NCBI GenBank assembly: GCA_903953935.1
Contig: CAJBLF010000004.1
Span: 1-45,872 of the forward strand
Direction: 5' to 3'
Origin: an uncultured bacterium
Lineage (GTDB): Bacteria > Patescibacteriota > Gracilibacteria > Absconditabacterales > Absconditicoccaceae
DNA length: 45,872 nucleotides
Under the pieces are notes generated by a model, which saw only the letters and a program-made list of their open reading frames with translations, was not told the DNA's origin and searched no databases. The position numbers and the translations under genes were made by a program. Positions 4,115 through 44,942 of this stretch are shown here, in pieces. The stretch's first letter is position 1. Each line of letters begins with the position of its first letter.

Positions 4115-4744
4115 ATGACAATTACAAAAGAAAAAAAACATCAGCTCTTAGCAAAATATAGAGAAGATCTCGGTAACGCTGCAAATGCAGTGATTGTGAA
4201 ACAATCTGGGATACCGGTGACGCTTGCCAATAAAATTAGAATGGAACTCAAGACTGCTGATGGGGAGATGAATATTATCAAAAAAAGAATATTTCTCAGA
4301 GCCCTCAAAGACGCAGGACTTGAGGATGTTAATGTGGATGTCTTAGAATGATCGGTATTTGCATTATATTCACATGAAAATGAATTTGGACCGCTCAAAG
4401 TAATCAACAAATATTTGAAAGAGTTTAAAAAAGATAATAAGGGATCAGAATTCTCATTTATAGGAGGATGGTTTGAAAAGAAATGGCAAGGTGGTGAATA
4501 TGTGAGTGAACTTGCTAACGTACCTACAAAAGAAGAACTATTATCCAAACTTTGTTACTTATTCAATTATCCATTACAATCATTCGCTTGTGTACTTAGC
4601 GAGATTGCAAAGAAAAATGGTGGTGATGTAGTAGAGGAGGTTAAGGCTGAGGTTAAAGTTGAAGAAACTAAAATAGAAGAAGCTAAGGTTGAAGAAGCGC
4701 CAGTTGAAGAAGTAAAGGTAGAAGAAACACCAGCTGCGGAATAA
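4115..4744 (+). CDS. rplJ: 50S ribosomal protein L10 (uL10)
   Basis: This is a 209-residue uL10, the base of the ribosomal stalk that carries L7/L12 dimers and recruits translation factors. The N-terminal half matches the family pattern (KEKKHQLLAKYREDL..., then IIKKRIFLRALKDAG). One glycine is a TGA at 4349-4351. ATG 4115 is the only start that keeps the N terminus, and it follows the L10 leader directly. The last ~45 residues form an acidic tail of repeated KVEE/PVEE units that is longer and more repetitive than in typical uL10. rplL follows 56 bases downstream, as usual. Confidence 0.93.
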
Positions 4745-4800
4745 TTAATTAGTTGTTAACTTATTGTAACATATTCTTTATATTATAATTGTTTCAAGAA

Positions 4801-5187
4801 ATGGAACTTACAAAAAATGCACAGAAGATAATGGATCTCGTAAAAGAGATGAGTGCAGTAGAATTAAACCAATTAGTAAAAGGATTGGAAGAAGAATTTG
4901 GCGTTAGTGCTGCCGCTATGGTAGTTGCTGGAGCTGCTGGTGGAGCTGCTGAAGGTGGAGCTACTGGAGGATCTGTTGACACAGTTAATATTGAATTAAC
5001 TGAGATTGGACAACAGAAAATTTGAGTTATCAAAGTAGTCAAGGAATTGCTTGGACTTGGACTCAAGGAAGCTAAAGATTTGGTAGAAAAAGCACCTACA
5101 TTAATCAAAGAAAAGGTTAAATTTGAAGATGCTGAAGGTATCAAAGCTAAATTAGAAGCTGAAGGAGCAACTATCTCTTTCAAGTAG
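4801..5187 (+). CDS. rplL: 50S ribosomal protein L7/L12 (bL12)
   Basis: This is bL12 of 128 residues with the normal layout: an N-terminal dimerisation helix region, an Ala/Gly-rich hinge ([15 protein letters not shown]) and the C-terminal factor-binding domain with the conserved [16 protein letters not shown] segment. The glycine before VIKVVKELL is encoded by TGA at 5023-5025; under the standard code the factor-binding domain would be lost. ATG 4801 is preferred over the upstream in-frame TTG at 4789 because it matches the family N terminus. Confidence 0.95.
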
Positions 5188-5214
5188 ACACTTAGAGGTT
5201 TGGTTGATTGTGAA

Positions 5215-5232
5215 CTTAGATTTTTTTCTAAG
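5215..5232 (+). terminator. Weak hairpin after rplL
   Basis: CTTAGA (5215-5220) and TCTAAG (5227-5232) flank six T residues. The loop, not the 3' side, carries the T run, so this is at best a weak terminator or processing site between rplL and rpsB. Confidence 0.3.
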
Positions 5233-5284
5233 ATCTAATCGTCTAATATTCTAAAAGTCTTTTATTTATCAAACGCTAAAAATT

Positions 5285-5947
5285 ATGAGTATATCGGTAA
5301 ACGATGTAATCGAGGCACAAGCTCATATTGGCACGCTCAAAAGCGAAGCTCACCCAAAAACAAACAAATATTGGGCTGGAGTCATAAACAATATAGCGGT
5401 GATCAATCCTGAATCTATCATAGAGCAGATCCAAAATGCACAAAAGAAAATTCAGACAGCCAAAGCTGAAGGAAAAGAGATTTTGGTAGTATCTGAAAAA
5501 AAGATGTATGCGGACGAACTTGAAAAGTTAGGTGAAAAATATGGATTTAATTACCTCAATTACAAACTTCCTTCTGGATTTTTGACAAATTTTGAAACAC
5601 TCAAAAAAAGGATAGAATCTATGAATACTATGGCTCGTTTTGTTGATACAGAAAACTATCTCTCTTTAACAAAGAAAGAGCAGTTAGTATACAAAAGAAA
5701 ACTTGCAAGAGTATTGAAAATCTACAAAGGAGTAAAGGGACTCAGCAGAAAGCCAGAATTGGTAATTGTGCTTGATGGTCAGATGATGGATAATTTCATT
5801 AACGAACTAACAAAAACTCCTGATATTCAAAATGTTATCATCGCAGGGACAAATTTCTCTAGACGATGGGCTGAAGATAGCATTATCCTAGCTAATATAT
5901 GAAGTCACAAGAGTGTGGATTTTATACTAAATAGTATGTTTAGTTAG
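5285..5947 (+). CDS. rpsB: 30S ribosomal protein S2 (uS2), divergent
   Basis: The 220-residue product follows uS2 along its length: VIEAQAHIG for the usual LLEAGVHFGH, HPKTNKYWAG for the RWNPKMKPYI region, a KLPSGFLTNFETL segment for the RWLGGMLTNF motif, a LTKKE segment, and PELVIVLDG. The usual C-terminal DTNCDPD...PIPGNDDA block is replaced by AGTNFSRRWAEDSIILANIG. One glycine is TGA (5900-5902); the frame ends at TAG 5945. Its placement upstream of tsf supports the call, although a membrane-protein gene intervenes. It is about 20 residues shorter than a typical uS2. Confidence 0.85.
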
Positions 5948-5995
5948 TTTTTATTATAGGATTGCTTACTGCAATTTATCTTCTCTTGGATTTAT

Positions 5996-6466
5996 ATGGA
6001 AGAAACATTACAATCCAACATACCTGGACAACAGTCCAATATAGAAGTAACTACACCTATTGCGGTAGAGCCTACCCAAGAGATGTATGTACCTAGCAGC
6101 ACCGAAAAAAAGAGGGCAGTAATGATGTACCTGCTTATTGGTATTATTGTCGTTGCATTCAACAATCAGAGAAAAAGTGAGTTTGAACAGTTCCACCTCA
6201 AACAATCATTGTGATGGTGGGCATCGTTTCTTCTGCTTCTGGTTGTTACTCTTGTATTTATGTTTATTCCGTTCGTCAGATATCTTCCTATATTTCTCGT
6301 GTTAATTATGGTGGTTTTCTTAGCTATCTTTGCAAAACGCGCTCGAGATGGGAAATACAGTATAGCCCAGGAAAATAAGTTGGCAATATTTGTCGGTTTA
6401 GGGGAGTGGATTATGACGTTATTTGAGGTCAATAAAGAAGAAATCACTCCAGAAGTAAAAAATTAG
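5996..6466 (+). CDS. Small membrane protein, Tic20/DUF4870-like
   Basis: A 156-residue protein with a polar N-terminal ~40 residues and three or four hydrophobic segments. The stretch SEFEQFHLKQSL followed by TGA-Gly and WW is typical of the Tic20-like/DUF4870 family, in which a conserved (F)H-KQSL motif precedes a transmembrane helix. It lies between rpsB and tsf, which are normally adjacent. Function is unknown. Confidence 0.65.
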
Positions 6467-6514
6467 GAATTCGTAATTTGTAATTCGTAATCTTTTAATT
6501 AGTTAATCAGCATC

Positions 6515-7315
6515 ATGTGAAATATAGAATTATTAAAACAACTTAGAGACATGACATTCGCACCGCTCAAGGATTGTAAAGAAGCATTGGCTGAAGCGGG
6601 TGATGATTTGGAACAAGCACAAGAGATTCTCAAGAAGAAAGGAATAGCAAAAGCAGGAAATAGAGCTGAAAGAGATACAAAAGAAGGAATAGTTAAGATT
6701 GTAGAGATACATGAAAAAACAGTTGGACTCAAACTTTTGTGTGAGACAGATTTTGTAGCAAAAAACGAAAATTTTCAAGCATTGTTCGATTCTGTGCTCA
6801 ATAAGATTGCTCAGGGATCAAATGAAATAACTGCGTTAGCTGATCTTGACCCAGCATTGGCTCAAACTGTAGAAGATGAGGTCAAAGAATTTATGGGAAA
6901 GACAGGTGAAAATATGAAAATAGGTGGCGTATTTGTTACGCAAAAAAAGCCATTCATTTATAATCATCCAGGAAATAAGGTAGCTACAATTATTTTCTTT
7001 GAAGGAGGTAATGATGATATAGCTAAAGAGCTTGCTTTGCAAGTGACAGCTATGAATCCTACATATGTATCATTTGAAGATGTTGATCAAAGTGGAATAG
7101 CAAGTATGAAAGAAGAATTTACTGCAGAACTTAAAGCTGCTGGTAAGCCAGACGCTATGATTGCTCAGATTGTAGATGGTAAGATCAAGAAATCATTGGC
7201 AGATGTTGTATTATTGGAACAAGAATATATCAGAGATGGAGCAAAAAAAGTCAAAGATATTATTCCTGCAGACATGAAGGTTATCGCATTTGTGAGAATG
7301 GCAATCTGAAGTTAG
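6515..7315 (+). CDS. tsf: Elongation factor Ts
   Basis: EF-Ts (266 residues) is the nucleotide exchange factor for EF-Tu. The UBA-like N terminus (ELLKQLRDMTFAPLKDCKEAL) and the TDFVAKNENF motif that contacts EF-Tu are both present. Starting at ATG 6515 makes codon 2 a TGA (Met-Gly-Asn) and restores the N-terminal residues that an ATG-6551 start would remove. Gly 265 is also TGA, one residue before the TAG stop. The intergenic space after it carries the CAACTAACA-type inverted repeat. Confidence 0.94.
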
Positions 7316-7400
7316 TGAACAACTAACAGTGAACAATTAACAATTCTTGAAAATTATATAAAATATATTCAATCGTTGTTAGTTATTAGTTGTTAGATGT
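7310..7400. repeat. Intergenic AACAACTAACA inverted repeat (copy 1)
   Basis: AACAACTAACA at 7318-7328 faces TGTTAGTTATTAGTTGTTAG at 7377-7396. The same word, in the same facing arrangement, is found near 12215-12273 and 33204-33290. Confidence 0.6.
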
Positions 7401-7437
7401 TGGTTGAAATATTAGTTTTAATATTTAATAAAGTAAT

Positions 7438-8004
7438 ATGCAAAAGTATGATGTGGTATTATTGGTTGATGCATCTTTATCAGAGACCAATCGTAAAGAG
7501 GTAGTATCTGAATTTGAGAAGCTTATCAAAAAAGGTATCGTTCATCAGGATGATATGGGGCTACAACAATTAGCTTACAATCTAGGTAATAAGGCTTGAA
7601 ACGATAAGGCATATGCATACTCATATGGTATTCAAGCAGAATCTGAAGATTTGGAAGAAATCAAAAAGAATGTCTTGTATAATAAAGCAATCAAAAGATA
7701 CTTTATTTTTAAGATGGAAAAGAATGATGCTTTTGTAGAATTCACGAAGGTGAATGATGAACTTAAGGCAATCATAGAGACATGGGATGCTAAAAAACTT
7801 TGACAAAAAGTAGTATTTTTCTCTGATAAAAAGAATGAAAAGTATCTCAATCGAAAATCAGTAACTATGTTGAAGAAATATATAACTAGATTTGGTAACA
7901 TTAAACCGAGAGAATATACTAAAAATCCTGTAGGAATTCAAAAGAAACTTAAAACAGCTATAATGAGAGCTAGAGAACTTGGATTTATGGCGTTCAAGAA
8001 ATAA
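7438..8004 (+). CDS. rpsF-rpsR: Fused ribosomal proteins S6 and S18 (bS6-bS18)
   Basis: One uninterrupted frame of 188 residues carries two ribosomal proteins. Residues 1 to ~120 are bS6 (MQKYDVVLLVD start, GLQQLAYNLG, YNKAIKRYFIFKM near the end). Residues ~122-188 are bS18 (SVTMLKKYITRFGNIKPREY, then KLKTAIMRARELGFM). The join holds a TGA at 7801-7803 (residue 122); another TGA-Gly lies inside the S6 part (7597-7599), so TGA is clearly sense here. No start codon with a ribosome binding site lies near the join. bS6 and bS18 bind as a heterodimer on the 30S platform, so fusion is structurally sensible. The ssb gene usually found between rpsF and rpsR is absent. Confidence 0.88.
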
Positions 8005-8111
8005 AGTAAGAATTGCTTATATTGGTATAGGTACGAGTTGAGACAATATATAGCAACATGAAACCACTTGAGACAAAAAAATAGTTAATTTATCATTTAT
8101 CATAAAGGAAA

Positions 8112-8267
8112 ATGGCTAGTAAATTAAGAAGGGTGAGAAAATATTCTCGAACCAAAAGAATAGGTAAACATGGTTTCAGGGAAAGAATGTTGACTGCATG
8201 ATGAAGGGCAGTGCTGAGTAGAAGAAGAAGAAAGGGAAGAAAACAATTGACCGTTCAAAGATCTTAA
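8112..8267 (+). CDS. rpmH: 50S ribosomal protein L34 (bL34)
   Basis: A 51-residue basic protein matching bL34: RTKRIGKHGFRERM, then LTAGGRAVLSRRRRKGRKQL. Two consecutive TGA codons encode the Gly-Gly of the usual NGR turn. bL34 is normally 44-46 residues and normally sits near dnaA/rnpA; here it lies just upstream of rpoB. Confidence 0.93.
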
Positions 8268-8296
8268 TCGGATTTTTGAATTTTTTTGTTTTTGGT

Positions 8297-8328
8297 TTAC
8301 CAACCAAATAAACGTAGTACGTTGGTAA
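8297..8328. repeat. Inverted repeat upstream of rpoB
   Basis: TTACCAAC (8297-8304) and GTTGGTAA (8321-8328) form an 8-bp perfect stem with a 16-nt loop in the rpmH-rpoB gap. There is no T run after it. It could be an mRNA structure or operator; function is unknown. Confidence 0.4.
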
Positions 8329-8439
8329 CTATATATTCTTCAATGAAAAATAGATAAGGAGAATATATGAGAAGGAAATTTTTGACTGCCTCACGTATAA
8401 AACATACTCATTGTTTATTTTCTTATCAAAGATAACCTT

Positions 8440-12195
<3,756 letters not shown>

Positions 12196-12214
12196 ACCAA
12201 CTAACAACTATCAT

Positions 12215-12273
12215 CTAACAACTAACAATTAGTGAAAAAACATATAGGAAATACCATCACTGTTAGTTGTTAG
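12215..12273. repeat. Intergenic CTAACAACTAACA inverted repeat (copy 2, rpoB-rpoC gap)
   Basis: CTAACAACTAACA (12215-12227) is perfectly complementary to TGTTAGTTGTTAG (12261-12273), a 13-bp stem. No poly-T tract follows, so it should not block transcription into rpoC; it could shape the mRNA or be a dispersed repeat. Confidence 0.65.
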
Positions 12274-12326
12274 TTGTTCACTGTAAGTTGAATTGAGTCA
12301 TTTATTTTCTTACTAAGTATATTAGT

Positions 12327-16163
<3,837 letters not shown>

Positions 16164-19438: not shown

Positions 19439-22400
19439 TTATTTTGAATTATTTTTATTGATAAAATATTGAATTTCAGAAAGCGTAGAAAAATATCTCA
19501 CTTTGATAAGTTTGTAGGACATATATCATCTATCGGTTTTGTAAATGGTATATACTTTATAGTTTGGTGCGGTATATGTTTGTGGCGTGAAAGATGTATC
19601 TACACCATGACTTCGGACTGCTTGTGGAGTGTTTTTGCTATCTATATAATTGCGGAGTGCACTCAAGGTAGTGAAATATTTTTTAATGACAAATTCATTG
19701 GCAGTATATCACTGACCACCATATTGGACGGTATAGATTTTCCCATTCGAGGCAACATGTCTGCTTGGATCTGTATTGGTAAATACCCATGATGAAGCAC
19801 CATAAGTGTTGATGTGACAATCTCCAGGGTTTTGGAAATCGATATATCTTGCAAGTGAATCACGATTAGCAAAATATGTGATGATCTTAAATGCTGGTGA
19901 TGTATATCCTTGTTTTGTGAAATCATAATTGATTGCATATTCTTTGCAGTTAGGAGCGATATGTGTTCATGTATTTATAGATCCTGTGAGTGAGATACCA
20001 AGTTCTGCATTAATGAGATCTTCTAGATATTTTAGATTACAGTCATTGGTAAAATCTATTTCATCAGCAAGCATACTTTGCATGGTATAGAGAAACTCAG
20101 AATATTTATCTGCGCTACCGGAATAATTTTGTATTAAGCTATCAAAAATAGTCTGGATAGTGCTTTGATCAGAGCTTGAAAGTGTACAATCGATTGCTGA
20201 TTCTACTTTAGTGGTTATATTGAATTCAAGAGTTCTGTTTGCCAAGGTAAGTAGTGAAGACACAGTATCATCATAAGTATTGCTTGATCTTAGTGTTATA
20301 TAAAGAACATCATTGTTGGTAACAAATGTACCAGTTCATGCATCACTTCAGTTTTTGTAGAGTATACCATCACCGTCAACAGTAGCCCAAATAGATAATC
20401 ACGTTGCAATTCATTCGATAGTAATTTCATTAGAATCATAATAGGTTCTGAGATTTGCTCTCGTTTTGTTAGTAAAATTTCGATCATTTATATCTATGAC
20501 TTGAAAATATCAGATGTTGCTTCGGATAGAGGAGTTGCCATCTCTATCTTGAGCTTTTATTCTGACATAGTATTTGTTTGTAGTAGTGTCAAAATCACTG
20601 TTTGGTGATCCTATAGTGCCAGTTATGGTTGTTATAAATCCAGTATTTATGATACGTACAAACCCACTGTCGTTTGCTATTTGATAGCTATATCATTCTA
20701 TTCAAGAACCAGTATCGGTAGATGCAGTCCATTCAAAAGTGGTAAAGAAGGTTTTTTCACCGCTTAATGGATATAGAAGTGTTGGAGATGTAGGTGCGAC
20801 AGTATCAGATCATTTAGTCATGATGGTGAAGAGACCAGTTCATTGGCCGATAGATACGTATCATGTGATTGTTTGTGCATATCATGAACTGCTTTGGGCC
20901 ATGGCATGGATCTTATATCAGCTGTAAACAATTAATCCTGATGTTCCAGAACTAATCAATGTAGATCATGAATATATTTCTAGGTATCCCGATGTTGTGG
21001 TTGGTGTAAAAGTAATGGATGCCATAACACCTGTTTCTATACCACCAACGGTTACCGTGCTTCAGGTAAACGTATTTAAGGGTATACTTGTGAGATTGGC
21101 AAATGCAAAAGAACCAGTATTTGGTATTTGATTAAGTCATCTGGTGGTTATAGTAAATTGACTGGTTACAGATCATAAGGTAACTGTTCATGTAACTGTC
21201 TGATTGTATCATGTATGTGAAAGTACATATATCTGAAGTGTGTTTCCATTGTTAATCATTCAACTGAGTAATGTAGCAACTCAACTGATAACGAGATATC
21301 CAGAAGTAGTTGAAGGAGTAAGACTTAATGTAACAGGTACGGCAATATTGATGATACCAGCGGTATAAATATTGGTAGTATACCAGCTATTTAATTGTAC
21401 TGAGCCACTTGATACAAAAGTCATTCATTCTGGTGTAGTATCTCGAATAGCAGCTGTTTCGGCTATATATTTGTTTGTGTCATATTGTGATGATAATTGG
21501 ATCAACGCATTTCATGTAATATATCTTACGGGAACTTTTTGTTTGTACATATTTAAGCCAAAAAGATAATTCACATATGTGGTATCCGGAGTAAGAAATG
21601 TTGCTATATATCAAATATTTGTACATGTGCTATTGAGAAGGGTCAATGAGCTTCAAGAAAGCATAGGATTAGTCGCATACAAACATGAGAATATATTTGT
21701 TCATGTGCTAAGCAATCAAGCATAGGCAAAAAGTCATGCAGCTCCAGGAGAGAGATAGGTATCGTTACCAACCGTTCATTCAAAATTTCCTCATACATTA
21801 TCAAAGAGACTCAATTCTCAATAATATTTATTTCATTGAGAACTATAAAGAGATCTAATACCTAGCGTATTATGATATACTCTTACATCATTGAGCATAT
21901 TGCCAGATGAGTTTTTAAAATAGATTCCAGCATCGCTATTGTTGTAAATTGCTGCTCTATTGATGACGTTTTCTTGGGTCGTCAAATCTCAAAATACTCA
22001 GAAAGTATTGTTATATGATTGAAAATTATTGATAGCATTTCTACTTGATCAGTTAGCAAACCAGATTCCATATCAGCTATTGTTATAGGTTTGTGAATTG
22101 TTTATGACATTATAATTTGAAGAATAATAGAGGTGTATACCTGCGATTCAATTGTTGAAAACCTGTGCATTGGTAATAGTATTGTGGTGTGAACTGAGTC
22201 CGAGATAGATTCCATATTGAGAGGAATTATAACTTTGGATATTGGTGAGTGTAGAATTGTTACTTGCCCCATCAAGTTTTATATTTGATTTTGCAGTAGT
22301 TGATGTTTGGTTTATATCATAATACAATCCATCTATTTTGATGGTATCTATAATGATGTTGTGTTTATCGTTGGCATAGAGTATGCTATTCATACCACCT

Positions 22401-24019
22401 CATCCTGATTTAGTAAACCTTGTGTTTCCAGTTCCTACAAGTGCAATACAATTTCAATTGAATACAAAACCATTGCTACTACCACCAACGTTTGATCTGT
22501 ATTCGTCGCTAGTGAGGATATATATAGTATGATCTTCGAAAGTATATGGTGAGTTGAATATTCCACCAGAAAGTGTTTTTATATGAAAGGCAGAGAGTGA
22601 ACATCAGTTACTTTGTCGATTTTGGGTATAGAGAGATCATGATCAGAAGTATTTATTAACAAGAGATTGTTGGCTCGCTGAGAGTGTAGATTCAGGTTCG
22701 GCGATATACTTTGTAGAGGAATAATCATATCAATTAGTGCCATATTCCTCAAATGTTGATCAGTGATACCATATAGGCATTGTTTGTTGTATGATGGTAC
22801 TTCAGAAAATGTATCTGATAGGTTGTTTTGTTGAATCAAATGTTTGTATTCATCTTATAGCTGTCCGATTCGTTCCATTGAGTAGCCATTGACCAATGCT
22901 ATTTTGAGGATTAGTTATTTGATTATAATTCATGGATACGGATCATGTATCTATTTGACCCGCACTTCGTGATGATATGGGTGCTGATCACGCTTGTAAT
23001 GTGGATCCTGTATCTATGTAATATATATCACTATTGCTAAAAAACCTCAACGTACCATAATAATCGATATATCATGAATATTGCATTATCAATCATGTGG
23101 TGTTATTATAGAAATAGAGATTGTTAAATATTCATGTTGTTGTTCAATTGTATATTCAAACGGTATTGTTGAAAAAGGTGCTATTGTTTATGGCAGAAAT
23201 AGATTGATTCGCATTAATTCCATTGGCGTTGTTGAAAAATTGAGAATTATTTATCGTTGATATAGCATTATTAAATAATGCACCATTAGTATTATTAAAA
23301 AATAACGAATTATTTATGGTCGCTTGTGTGTCATCAAAATATATCCCATTTTGGTTATTAAAAAATCTTGAATTGTATAATCAAACAAATGCAGAGTTAT
23401 TCACTGAACGAAGTCAGAGATTGGTATCATAGAAGCTCATATTGTTGAGTGTTGTGTTGATATTGTTGTCGGTATCTATTCATATGGTTCAAAACCCTTG
23501 ACCATCAACCTTTATATTGTCGAGAATAATATGATTTTTTCCTGAGAAAGCCAAGAGAGAGGTGACGCTCGAATTAGCCGCTTTGAAATATACATCACTC
23601 TTAGCAATGATAGCAGAACAATCACTGAGGACTGTGGTGTTTGTGATAGTATATGTTCATGGATTCATGACATATATAGTATCTCATGCTAACGGTCAGC
23701 CAGATCATGCAGACAGATATACCACATTGCTTGGTACACAACTAGAATCCCACAATCTTGTATATGCTGTGGATCCTGGAGTTCCATCACCAAAAAGCGC
23801 GTATTTTATATTTTCATTAGTAGGATTTTGATCTCGAAAGTCTGGGGTAATAAATCCTCACCATTGTCGACTAGCGGACGTAGAGGTCAAAATATTTGAC
23901 GCACCCCAAAGCATACCTAAAATTGCTAATCCAAAGACACCAAAAGCATGATGAACATTCTGATGAAAATATTCAAAGAATCATTCTGGATGTTTAATAT
24001 GGTGTAATGGTGACTTCAT
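19439..24019 (-). CDS. Large membrane-anchored surface protein: beta-helix, Ig-like domains and triple APNGK repeat
   Basis: A single code-25 frame of 1526 residues, rich in TGA glycines. Residues ~22-48 are hydrophobic and should be a signal anchor. Residues ~120-700 contain many Asn-rich right-handed beta-helix repeats of the NosD/pectate-lyase type (NNSLFFNN, INNSQFFNNANGI, NNSTFFNN). Next come Ig/fibronectin-like sandwiches (~850-1250; WTASTDTGSGIEGYSYQIAN, then TVDGDG...NGSDAGTGTFVTNND). A helical, Cys-containing stretch follows (~1260-1340), then three copies of a ~55-residue unit starting HIAPNCKEYAI, HVASNGKIYTV and YTAPNYKVYTI, with NPGDCHINTYG in the first. The helical stretch and repeats are shared with the next gene upstream. 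Likely an adhesin or carbohydrate-binding surface protein; the substrate is unknown. Confidence 0.85.
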
Positions 24020-39134: not shown

Positions 39135-42100
39135 TTAGAAATTAGGGACATTGATAGTAAGTGTGCCAGAATATTGACCAATAGCCTGAGATCAAGTAAG
39201 GACTACTTTGAGTGAAACATTGTTTGTTATGATTTTGCATCATTCTCCGACTACACCAACCTTACCCAAAATTTCTTTAGCTCATGAAAGATTAACTCGT
39301 TGATCAAGAGAATCACCTGAAGAGAATGTACATACTCATTCGAGCTTATAAGCAGCAGGATTTTTGATGTATACGCTCGATGCTGGGATAGTTTGAGCAG
39401 CAATATTAGTTGAGCTATTAACGAGCTCAGAAGATTGGATAGTAAGTGCCCGAGTACCTAATCATTGTTTGTCTTCACAAAACCATTCGGTAGCACCACC
39501 AGTGGTAACGAATCAGGTGATGAGACTTCTTTCATCATATGATAGTCCAGTAGTTCCGAAGTCTAGGGTAGTACCATATTGGCAGTAGGAATGCCCAGTA
39601 ATTATTCTCAATTTAAGATCACCACAATAGGATCATGCAGCACAGGATCATCATCAAGCTGGAGAGCTATAGAGTATTTCATCGCTAGTCTGTGCATCAC
39701 TTGTTGAATTCCCATCAGCATCAAACTCAGCATAGATGGTTTTGGTTCCGTAAGTACCAGGAAGAATTCGAGATTTTGTAGTAGCATAATTTTCCCAAGT
39801 AGCACTAGCTAAATCACCGAGAGTATTAGCAAATCTCATCTGTATAGCAGTAGGGGTAGTAGAGTTATTGAGTGTTACCGTGTTTGATGTTGTAGAAGAG
39901 GCATCATTGTTGATAGTAAAAGATCAACTGAATTCTCCTCATCATTGTTCTGGTGGTAGAGTAATAGCAAAATCAGTAAAGTGATCGGTAATGAATTCTA
40001 CATGGGGTTGTCATCAGATAAGTTCTACAGTACTATTGGTATGAAATTCCCAAGTGGTTCAATTATCTTCAGAATAATAGATAACTATTGGGTCTCCTAT
40101 GTTTTTTCATGGAGTAGGAATACTAATAGTGGCGTTTCATCATACAATAAATAAGGGTTCTAATTCTGATCAAACACGAATAGCTTTTATTACATTATCA
40201 AGATTGTTGACAACTATATCAGTAGGAGGACTGATAATGCCCTCAAAATTAGATAGGGTAGATTTTTTCTTGAAAGCTACGTTATTGGGTATATACACTT
40301 TATTATTATTATTTTTAATATTTAAATTGGTTTTTATTATTCAGTTAGGGTTTTTTAGTAGTATTGATTTTGATCAAGATAGTTCTCAATTGTTTTGAGT
40401 ATATCATTTATTCAAAAATTCATTTACTATTGATTCATTATCTCATGAACTAGGTAATACTACAAGATCATTGTAATTATAAACAGTAAAATTTCTATTC
40501 AACCAATATTGATATCATCATATACTTTGGGCAAATCATGTGTAGTTATAGATTCATGGAGTTAATCAATTATAATCGATACTAAATGTCCAATTTTCAA
40601 GATTATTTTTGTTGAAATGCATATTATAGAGTATTTGAATCTCTTGGTTGCTTAATGCTTGATTATATAACATAATATCATCTAATCTTCATTTGAAATT
40701 ATAGGCACCATTACTTCAATATGGGTAATATCATAGGTAAAGTGGAGTATTTACATTATTTAATGTAATTCAGCTAAACGTACACGTGTTGCTTAGATTT
40801 CAGTTTATATATATTTTTAGAGAATTATAATTAAATACTCATACGACGTGTGAATATACTCAAGTCAAAACACTTCATGTAGCAGAATCACATGTTCTTT
40901 GTGTTGTTCATCATCAGATCCCAACTTGAAATGCTTTTCTTTGGCTAGAAGAATATCATAATCAATAATCTATATAAGGAGTATTAAACGATGTATGAGG
41001 TTTAGCAATTATTATTCAGTCAGCAACAAAAGTCGTTGGTTGAATCCATGCTGATATGGTAAATCATGTTGTCATATCCAAGCTATTGTTGTCTGTGATT
41101 ACAGCTCTATCATATGTGTTTCCTCATCTAAAGAATAATGAATTTCATTCTCTTCATAATCATGTTCGTGTAGCTCATGATATACTGCCATGGTTTCAAT
41201 AATTTGAGATATCTCTTAGTACCGTGGTACTTTCTCATAGTTCTGATATGTTATTAGCATTAGTCATAAAGACTAGATTATTGTTATATATATCGAAGCT
41301 TTCATTGTTTATGTTCCGATTGAATTTTTCTAAATTACTATCATTGATATCCAAAGAAATACTTACTCAGGTCTCAATAATTGTTTCTCCTTCATTGGGA
41401 GTTAGTCATGTCCAAGACATAGATCATGTTGTTCATTGATTAGCGTTTAACGTATACATATAGGTATTTATACTACTTGAATTATTAGAAGAATCACACG
41501 ATATTACTTTTATTGTGGTAGTTTCCTCAAAAAGCTGGTTTGACCATGTATTTCAATTACACGTTGGATTTGATCAATTACTTGTATATTTTATAATTCA
41601 TTCTGTGTTTGTACATGATACGCTGATGTTGTCTTCAAAAGACTGACTATTGGTACATGTAACCGGATCAGGTACAATAGTATCTATTCATCATCGATAA
41701 ACGGTTACTATTCATTGACTATTTTCATTATCTTTCAATGTTATGATACAGCTATCGTTTCATATCTTATTGGTATTGGGTGTATAGGTAATAATTTCTC
41801 ATAATACACTACAAGTTCATTTTGCCCCCTGGCTACTTATTCAACTGTAAGTTACACCTCAAGATCAACACCAAAATTCACTCGCATTCGATAATATTTT
41901 CCAGTTTCATGTTTTAGAGCTATTTCATACATTAGCATTTCATGTGAAATTATTTGCACTTATTCATACATTATTAAAAGTATACGTAGCTGTGTTGATG
42001 GCTAAATTTCATAAATAATCTCTCATATATCATGTTTTTGCAATGCTTCATGGCTGTTGTCAAGGTATGCTTAAGACATTCACGTTGCTTCGATTTGATA

Positions 42101-44942
42101 ATTCAAAACTATACGGGTATAGGCCTAATCCTACTCATAAATCTTCTCAGTACACAATACTAAGAGTTCAATCAACACATTCATATCAAGAGTTGCTGTT
42201 GAATTCAAATGATGGTCACTGGTTATCGTACGTATAAAATTGAGATAAAGATTCTCATGTTATTCAGTTTATGTTTTTTGCTCTAAAGAATATTTCTATG
42301 TTTGACGCTGGATTTAAGTTGTTTTTATAACAAGCTCATGCGGTAGTTGTTCAACTATAATTAGCTGAAAATCGATTATTTCCATCAAGAGAATATTCAC
42401 AAGATCATATATCTATTCAATTGTTGTCACTTACATTTGAACTTATGTCTATAATTCAACGATAAAAATTTTGAAAGTCCATTCATGTGGTGGCTGTATT
42501 TCATGAGTTTATTATTCATATAGTCAATTCTGGTGGATTATTGTTTTGTTGAGAAATAGTATGTATTCATCATCGATATACTTCTAATCGATCGGCAAAT
42601 TGAGTTCATTCATTATCTATTACGCTAATTACACATATATCGCTTCATGTTTGATTAGGATTTGGTGTATAAGTTAATATATCTCAATTTAGAGAACATG
42701 TTCATTTTTCTCACTGTTGGTAAATAGAATCTGCTGTGATGTCCCAGTTACCACATATTCATTCGTTTGCATTGGATAATGTTTTTCGGTTTACCTCTAT
42801 ATTTCAAGATCAAACACTATCGCTTCATGTAAATTCATCCGAAATAACTAGTTCATCTAAGAAAGAGTAAGTAGCTGACTTTGATGTAATATTTCCAGAT
42901 AAATCTCTAACGTATCAAGTCATTGCTATAGATCATGGAGTCCTCTGAGTATCTATATTTATTGTATTGGAAGTTCATCGATTTATTCAATCGAAGCTAT
43001 ATGGTAGTGTGTGTAGTCATACTCAAGTATCTTGAGCTCAACTTATTATGAGATATCAAACATTACACTCATATCAATTATTATCAGAGAAATCGAAATT
43101 AGGTCATGTTGTATCTGTCGTTTCTGTTTGTAAATCATATTCATCGATATTTGTTATTCAGTCACTGTCATAATCTCATTCTGCTGTTTGACTTAGATTA
43201 CCAAACATTATGTATTCTCGTCAATCAGGCAATGAATCGCTATCTGTATCATTTTGTAGAGAGAATCATGAATTATATAATCTACCTATATAATCTGTTT
43301 GACGATTTACTGTTCAAGATCATGGGTCTATGACTATTCAACTTATAGTTTTATATGTGTTTATTTCCAAGTAGCTATTTTGATTTTCTTGGAATAAACG
43401 GAACTCTCAACTAGATCAATCAGTATAATCTATTCTAGCAAATACAACATCAGGGGTCCATGCTTTATTATCTGCACGTGATAATTTGAAGAATGCACGT
43501 CAAGAATAAGTTCAATCGTTTATATTATCATAAAAATTTGTTACTCTAAGAAATGGATCTCAAGTACCGTATACGAATCTTGTAAAGAATCAGCTTAAAT
43601 TTATACTCGTAGCTTCTTCTCGAGTATTTTTGAACTGTTGAGTACTTATTGTTCAATGAGCGTGTTTATTTATATAATAATCCAATCAAGAAAAATATAC
43701 ATCATTTCATAGATAACTACGTAAGTGATGATATACCCAAGCGGCACGGTTGTATACAAGATTAGTATTAAATAAATTCGTATCTGATGGATTGTTCAGG
43801 GCCCTGGTTCGATCCATACTCCTACTCAATCAATAACTTGCTTGTTCTCTATTGTTTCTTCAGATCTTACTTACTTGAGGAAAATACGTTCATCAGGCTT
43901 CAGTAATCCACAGATCAGGTCGTGAAGCTATTGTTATCAGATTTCATATTCGTTGATGAGCTAGTTCATGCCTAAATAATGTGTCGTTTGAAATTGAATA
44001 CATTCAGATTATAGTATTGTGTTCCATATAATTATTTATAGGTCGTAGTATCGTTCAAAATTTCTCATCAGGGAAAGGATATGGTCATAAGATATCTATC
44101 ATTTGCTTCATCATTCATGTTGTAGTAGAAAGTTCTTTAACTCTATTGGATAGTGCAGTATTAGATGATTTTGTATATCACCATATATTTTGGCTACCAC
44201 TTAAAAAAGGAGAAGTTCAACTATACACAGTAGTAAAAGGTCATATTCAGATATAAACATTGTAGGTGCTTATAGGATAGTTTTCTTTCCGATAGACAGT
44301 GTGTGTTCAATCTCAATTGTTTGTATCGTACATTAATTTTCAGTTTCAGACAACTACTTTACCAGTCAAAGTTGTAACATAAAAGTCTAATGTGGCTTTA
44401 TCTCAAGGAACATCACTACAAGGAAATCGTTGATGAGCTCATAATGGTTCGTTGAAAGCATGTATTTCAGTTCATGTACTATAAAATCATAATCAACTAG
44501 TATCTATATCAAGTCTTGGTATTCAACTATACGTTACTACTACTACAATATCTCAGCTTGTATTTATATTTGATGGCAATAAGATTTCTAATCTTTTATT
44601 GGTTCAACTTAGAGAGATAGATCAGGTATACGTTATCCTGTAATTTCAAGAACTTATAGTTTGTTCATTGAATACTACTTCGCTTATTGTATAGGTATCC
44701 ACGAAATCTAATCAGAATCGTTCTCATGTAATAAAATTTCTATTAGATTTTGCCGTAACAGTAGTTTTGAAATCGACAACTCTAGTGTCCCGATTTATAT
44801 TTAATATTTCAATTTTATAATTTTGAGCATCTATTCAGGTATTACCTTGATAGGGAGTGTATCTGTAGGCATTTGAGCTATCTAAAAAAAGAAAGAACGA
44901 AACCAGAAGAATGCCAAGTGAATAAATAATAATTTTTTTCAT
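39135..44942 (-). CDS. Giant exported protein with M1 zinc aminopeptidase domain, LamG-like and Ig-like modules
   Basis: A single 1935-residue frame; I read every triplet and found no TAA or TAG. A signal peptide (IIIYSLGILLVSFFLFL) precedes an M1 N-terminal beta domain (RFPCSDVPGDKATLDFYV near 165). The catalytic domain follows: GxMEN-like NYMEHN (Glu307), HELAH (325-329), WITEAGGTYF with the third zinc ligand Glu348, and a YNRAAWVYHHLRSYLGN segment as in M1 enzymes. Then come Ig-like repeats ending in (V/L)xVYRGGI, a chitobiase-like SCTNTEGIIKYTSNGSNPT (~1110-1140), a LamG-like region (~1250-1490) and a beta-rich Cys-containing C terminus. TGA is the main Gly codon in much of it. Probably a secreted or surface peptidase; anchoring is not evident. 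Confidence 0.87.

Follow-up and report, generated by a model that had tools for sequence, protein, structure and literature searches.

The S6-S18 fusion gene

The genes for ribosomal proteins bS6 and bS18 are joined into one gene in the genome of an uncultured member of the Absconditabacteria/SR1 family, and, to judge from the sequence, this single-copy gene most probably makes a single polypeptide of ~21 kDa that carries bS6 and, covalently attached behind it, bS18. The gene (rpsF::rpsR) lies on the forward strand of the window, by which we mean the whole stretch of 45,872 nucleotides that was analyzed, and occupies positions 7438-8004. A preliminary description of this DNA had proposed that S6 and S18 are encoded in one frame, and the observation of a fusion is confirmed: under code 25, in which TGA is read as glycine, a single frame of 188 codons runs from an ATG at 7438 to a TAA stop at 8002-8004, and the 188-residue product scores above the cut-offs of both Pfam domains. 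The S6 domain (residues 3-92, positions 7444-7713) is complete, matching Pfam Ribosomal_S6 (PF01250) at 44.5 bits against a cut-off of 27 over profile positions 1-90 of 90. It is followed by a C-terminal extension (residues 93-121, positions 7714-7800). Residues 122-188 (positions 7801-8001) make up the bS18 part, including an N-terminal stretch of its own, as delimited by alignment with the separate S18 proteins of relatives. The S18 domain is likewise complete: Pfam Ribosomal_S18 (PF01084) matches residues 138-184 at 41.5 bits against a cut-off of 21, covering profile positions 6-52 of 52. The NCBIfam equivalog models gave 40.6 bits for S6 (TIGR00166, curated cut-off 42.9) and 32.2 bits for S18 (TIGR00165, curated cut-off 38.75), both below threshold, which we read as lineage divergence because the Pfam cut-offs are exceeded and the genome holds no other S6 or S18.

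Two glycines of the gene, G54 and G122, have TGA as their codon, and the second of these (positions 7801-7803) is the join residue, just as the preliminary description had stated; the junction reads ...DAKKLGQKVVFFSDKK.... From codon 85 on, the only in-frame starts are ATG92, GTG104, ATG143, and TTG144. The interval from codon 105 to codon 142 is free of ATG, GTG, and TTG in frame, so that a complete S18 cannot start separately, and the earlier claim that S18 lacks a start of its own is thus borne out. Nor did a separate rpsR, whose presence in the same genome had been named as evidence that would count against the fusion, turn up: the 1.30 Mb assembly (G000, 96% complete) gave one S6 match and one S18 match, both being the window fusion gene, and no second rpsF or rpsR was found elsewhere in it.

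By eye, the gene order on one strand across window positions 4115-16163 is L10-like, S2, EF-Ts, S6-S18, L34, RpoB, and RpoC. Upstream of the fusion gene, positions 7316-7437 hold a repetitive inverted stretch (GTTAGTTATTAGTTGTTAG and its partner); similar CTAGTAGCTAG-type repeats also occur upstream in two relatives (G010 and G028) and are absent from other relatives. No shared fold was apparent when the stretches upstream of the fusion genes were compared by eye, and no Rfam match to an rpsF_leader RNA was found near the fusion gene, with the proviso that Rfam may not contain such a model. A 16S rRNA, sought for an anti-Shine-Dalgarno check, had no match in the same assembly, which is rated 96% complete.

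Distribution among relatives

We sampled 49 species of the Absconditabacteria/SR1 family (f1), 47 of which were matched by a search with a profile of the fusion. Calls were made by reading the DNA; in the canonical fusion the join is free of indels and one frame runs from the S6 start to the S18 end. The preliminary description had suggested looking for the same fusion in related code-25 genomes, and it was indeed found, in canonical form, in 28 of the 47 matched species, including one with a complete chromosome (RAAC1_SR1_1, CP006913.1; G033). Two more species (G015 and G034) have in-frame S6-S18 joins of a different make, one (G031, locus L063) has a fusion frame that is split where an A-run seems to have lost one base, and 16 species retain separate rpsF and rpsR genes. 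Among the relatives sampled for copy number, each genome with a match carries only one S6 and one S18, and no extra rpsR was found. The one-base loss in G031 is either an error or a real frameshift. Open-frame lengths had also suggested in-frame joins in G016, G025, G032, and G431, which were rejected when direct reading revealed TAA or TAG between the genes.

The sampled canonical fusions form one clade in an rpoB tree, with support of 100; deep branches within the family are weakly supported in this tree (39-47). The fusion is clade-specific and is not a trait of code 25 as such, because the 16 relatives with separate genes also use code 25 and because a family using the standard code has a fusion of its own, described below.

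In the variant join of G015 (L047), an ATG at the position of the native S18 start is still present and in frame (MKKK...), and G015 may represent a half-way state. The joins of G015 and G034, each from a single metagenome bin, could be separate fusion events. The S18 proteins of two relatives in the same class (G036 and G041; L068 and L072) carry a CxxC pair near the N-terminus, and the S18 sequences of f1 are without it.

Conservation of the join

Among the canonical fusions, the alignment contains no indels from residue 93 to residue 186, a range that takes in the entire S6 extension; the separate S6 proteins of relatives have tails of widely differing length and composition. The join carries the conserved motif KKxG[QN]Kxx(F)F....N.(K)Y. 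In comparisons of close pairs, the join (residues 118-133) has a pS of 0.79 and a pN of 0.093, giving a pN/pS of 0.12, which makes it the most constrained part of the fusion (S6 core 0.19, S6 tail 0.36, S18 core 0.23). The join is real coding sequence under purifying selection, and this selection, together with the conservation of an indel-free join in 28 species, excludes chance.

The codon of join glycine 122 is TGA in 11 of the canonical fusions and GGA or GGT in the other 17, and the TGA is therefore incidental. As such, the preliminary description was right that TGA is present at the join in the window, but the emphasis placed on it does not stand, since that codon is not essential to the fusion. 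The GGA and GGT codons at the same site in other species support a glycine reading of TGA at the join, and TGA likewise stands for glycine throughout rpoB and other genes. The separate S18 of several relatives starts MKK..FF.D, and its initiator Met lines up with the join glycine in two of them (G014 and G023) and falls within a few residues of it in others.

TGA-encoded glycine is very heavy in long surface-like proteins of the window, with 158 in the 1935 aa encoded at 39135-44942 (minus strand) and 65 in the 1526 aa encoded at 19439-24019 (minus strand), as compared to 2 in the 188 aa of S6-S18 and 21 in the 1251 aa of RpoB. TGA use thus seems to differ strongly by gene class.

A second fusion in a distant family

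A phylum survey was carried out on a sample of 380 genomes. Among the matches listed, S6 and S18 in one frame were found outside f1 only in the small family f28, represented by six species and the sole family of its class in the sample. All five f28 genomes with an S18 (G065, G086, G103, G121, and G161) encode S6-S18 in one frame that has no stop under the standard code; the fusions are 192-199 aa long, and the two that were tested score 64-76 bits against both Pfam families. The f28 fusion resembles the SR1 fusion in having S6 followed by S18 in one frame, but it belongs to a different class, uses the standard code, and has a linker unrelated to that of the SR1 group. From these sequences, we infer that it arose independently. 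Further S6-S18 fusions may exist beyond those listed; G400, a candidate for a third fusion with an internal TGA, was rejected, as its DNA shows stops and no fusion.

Predicted structure and proposed product

The AlphaFold2 single-chain model, built on 27 aligned relatives, has a mean pLDDT of 89.5 and a pTM of 0.84. In the model, a helix (residues 102-114) follows the S6 domain and leads into the linker (~residues 111-130), which is the least confident part, with a pLDDT of 75-77 by ten-residue blocks. When the whole fusion model was used as the query, the fold-search list was filled by S6 domain matches, and the S6 part aligns (VIA-align) with the solved S6 chains 9i5x_b (Z 15.8, rmsd 1.3, 95 residues) and 1g1x_A (Z 14.5). 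For the S18 part, searching with a sequence profile built from the fusions recovers S18 chains in solved ribosomes with an E value of 1.5e-10.

S6 and S18 together make up a textbook cooperative step in 30S assembly. The S6:S18 heterodimer forms before binding the rRNA-S15 complex, and in E. coli this dimer is the active autoregulator, repressing rpsF (PMC4647458). The E. coli S6 is described as extended at its C-terminus and S18 as acetylated (PMC3347575). Since S6 and S18 are known obligate 1:1 partners, a covalent link between them is mechanically plausible, and this same pairing would be the reason that the fusion is tolerated. Within the single chain, the two domains would adopt the usual S6:S18 heterodimer arrangement and would dock as a unit on the 30S platform, at h22/h23 beside uS15, and the fusion would fix S6/S18 stoichiometry and local concentration. 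By analogy with the known S6:S18 heterodimer, faster assembly or a balanced supply of the two proteins might be gained as well.

Alternative explanations and origin

The main rival to a single chain is proteolytic cleavage of the fused polypeptide at the linker after synthesis, which would leave ordinary, separate S6 and S18 in the ribosome. Such cutting would suit the low confidence of the linker in the structural model and the conservation of its KKxG[QN]K motif, but the conserved residues that follow the glycine correspond to the native N-terminus of the relatives' separate S18 (MKK..FF.D), so that no cleavage site is needed to account for their conservation, and the f28 fusion has an unrelated linker; we consider proteolysis unlikely. 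Two products would also be made if S18 were additionally translated from an internal start, or if the join TGA still terminated some S6. The ATG at the native S18 start of the G015 variant, as well as a GTG or ATG at codons 123-127 in some relatives, favors this possibility, which is nevertheless quite improbable given that several other fused species, like the window gene, have no start between codons 105 and 142, that the join glycine has a GGA or GGT codon in 17 of 28 species, and that TGA encodes glycine throughout rpoB and other genes. As for an artifact of assembly or frame in which a stop has gone missing, most of the genomes are metagenome bins, and the frame of G031 is split by an apparent one-base deletion within a run of A. 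However, recurrence in 28 species from independent assemblies, one of them a complete chromosome, together with purifying selection across the join, refutes this explanation and leaves its likelihood practically negligible.

With regard to origin, the change of genetic code could itself have made the fusion, the TGA stop of S6 having become a glycine codon with read-through into S18, and the join codon of the window genome is indeed TGA. In contrast to this scenario, TGA is already glycine in family members with separate rpsF and rpsR, and the S6 stop in separate-gene relatives is TAA or TAG. Additionally, in alignments the join residue falls close to the initiator Met of S18 and not at the variable ends of S6, and the standard-code family has its own S6-S18 fusion. 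Fusion by TGA reassignment was rejected in view of these separate-gene relatives, and we judge it very improbable.

The simplest account of these sequences is probably the loss of a middle gene, after which the stop of S6 and the start of S18 disappeared. The order rpsF, SSB-like frame, rpsR is found in five relatives (G012, G013, G023, G027, and G035), and in seven (G014, G016, G017, G018, G019, G020, and G032) rpsF and rpsR are adjacent, about 25-60 bases apart; S6 stops at TAA or TAG in all twelve. Probably, then, ssb would have been lost from between rpsF and rpsR, leaving the genes at this ~25-60 base spacing, and in a likely second step the S6 gene would have lost its stop and the S18 gene its start, yielding one frame. 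These events would probably have taken place once, on the stem of the fused clade, after TGA had become a glycine codon. Genetic drift, acting in a reduced genome, could also account for the fusion.

It is conceivable, though on balance doubtful, that S6-S18 fusion is a recurrent, selectively favored change in minimal ribosomes. On this view it would have taken place in both the main Absconditabacteria clade and f28, with G015 and G034 as perhaps separate cases, and would alter the shape of the 30S platform and of the mRNA exit side in a lineage in which bS21 is undetectable. No bS21 (PF01165) match was found in 35 of the 36 f1 genomes searched (G000-G035), including the single-contig genomes G013, G017, and G033. 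The sole match, in G023, may be contamination. In Bacteroidia, bS21, bS18, and bS6 together bind the 16S tail (PMC9976891).

Significance and comparison with known systems

Having arisen naturally at least twice, the fusion very probably means that the S6/S18 pair can work as one chain, and it lends itself directly to testing whether the formation of the heterodimer, the stoichiometry, or the free ends are important. In practical terms, marker-gene pipelines that run on code 11, or that expect separate rpsF and rpsR, can truncate or overlook the fusion genes.

Fusion of partner proteins is a kind of event already known, and the rpoB-rpoC gene of Helicobacter is a natural example. As with S6-S18, neighboring genes for an obligate complex have merged there, but the complex is RNA polymerase and not the ribosome. 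For the S6-S18 fusion itself, a search of the open literature, with subscription papers and preprints outside its scope, found no published description. The fusion shares with the rpsF-ssb/priB-rpsR operon the gene order of S6 followed by S18, and the ancestral rpsF-ssb-rpsR form is seen in relatives; in contrast to the operon, it lacks the middle gene, the S6 stop, and the S18 start. Compared to the bS6:bS18 heterodimer of the bacterial 30S subunit (PDB 1G1X; PMC4647458), both domains are recognized in the fusion at the level of the family and the S6 fold is matched in the model, but the fusion is one covalent chain, in which S6 is without a free C-terminus and S18 without a free N-terminus.
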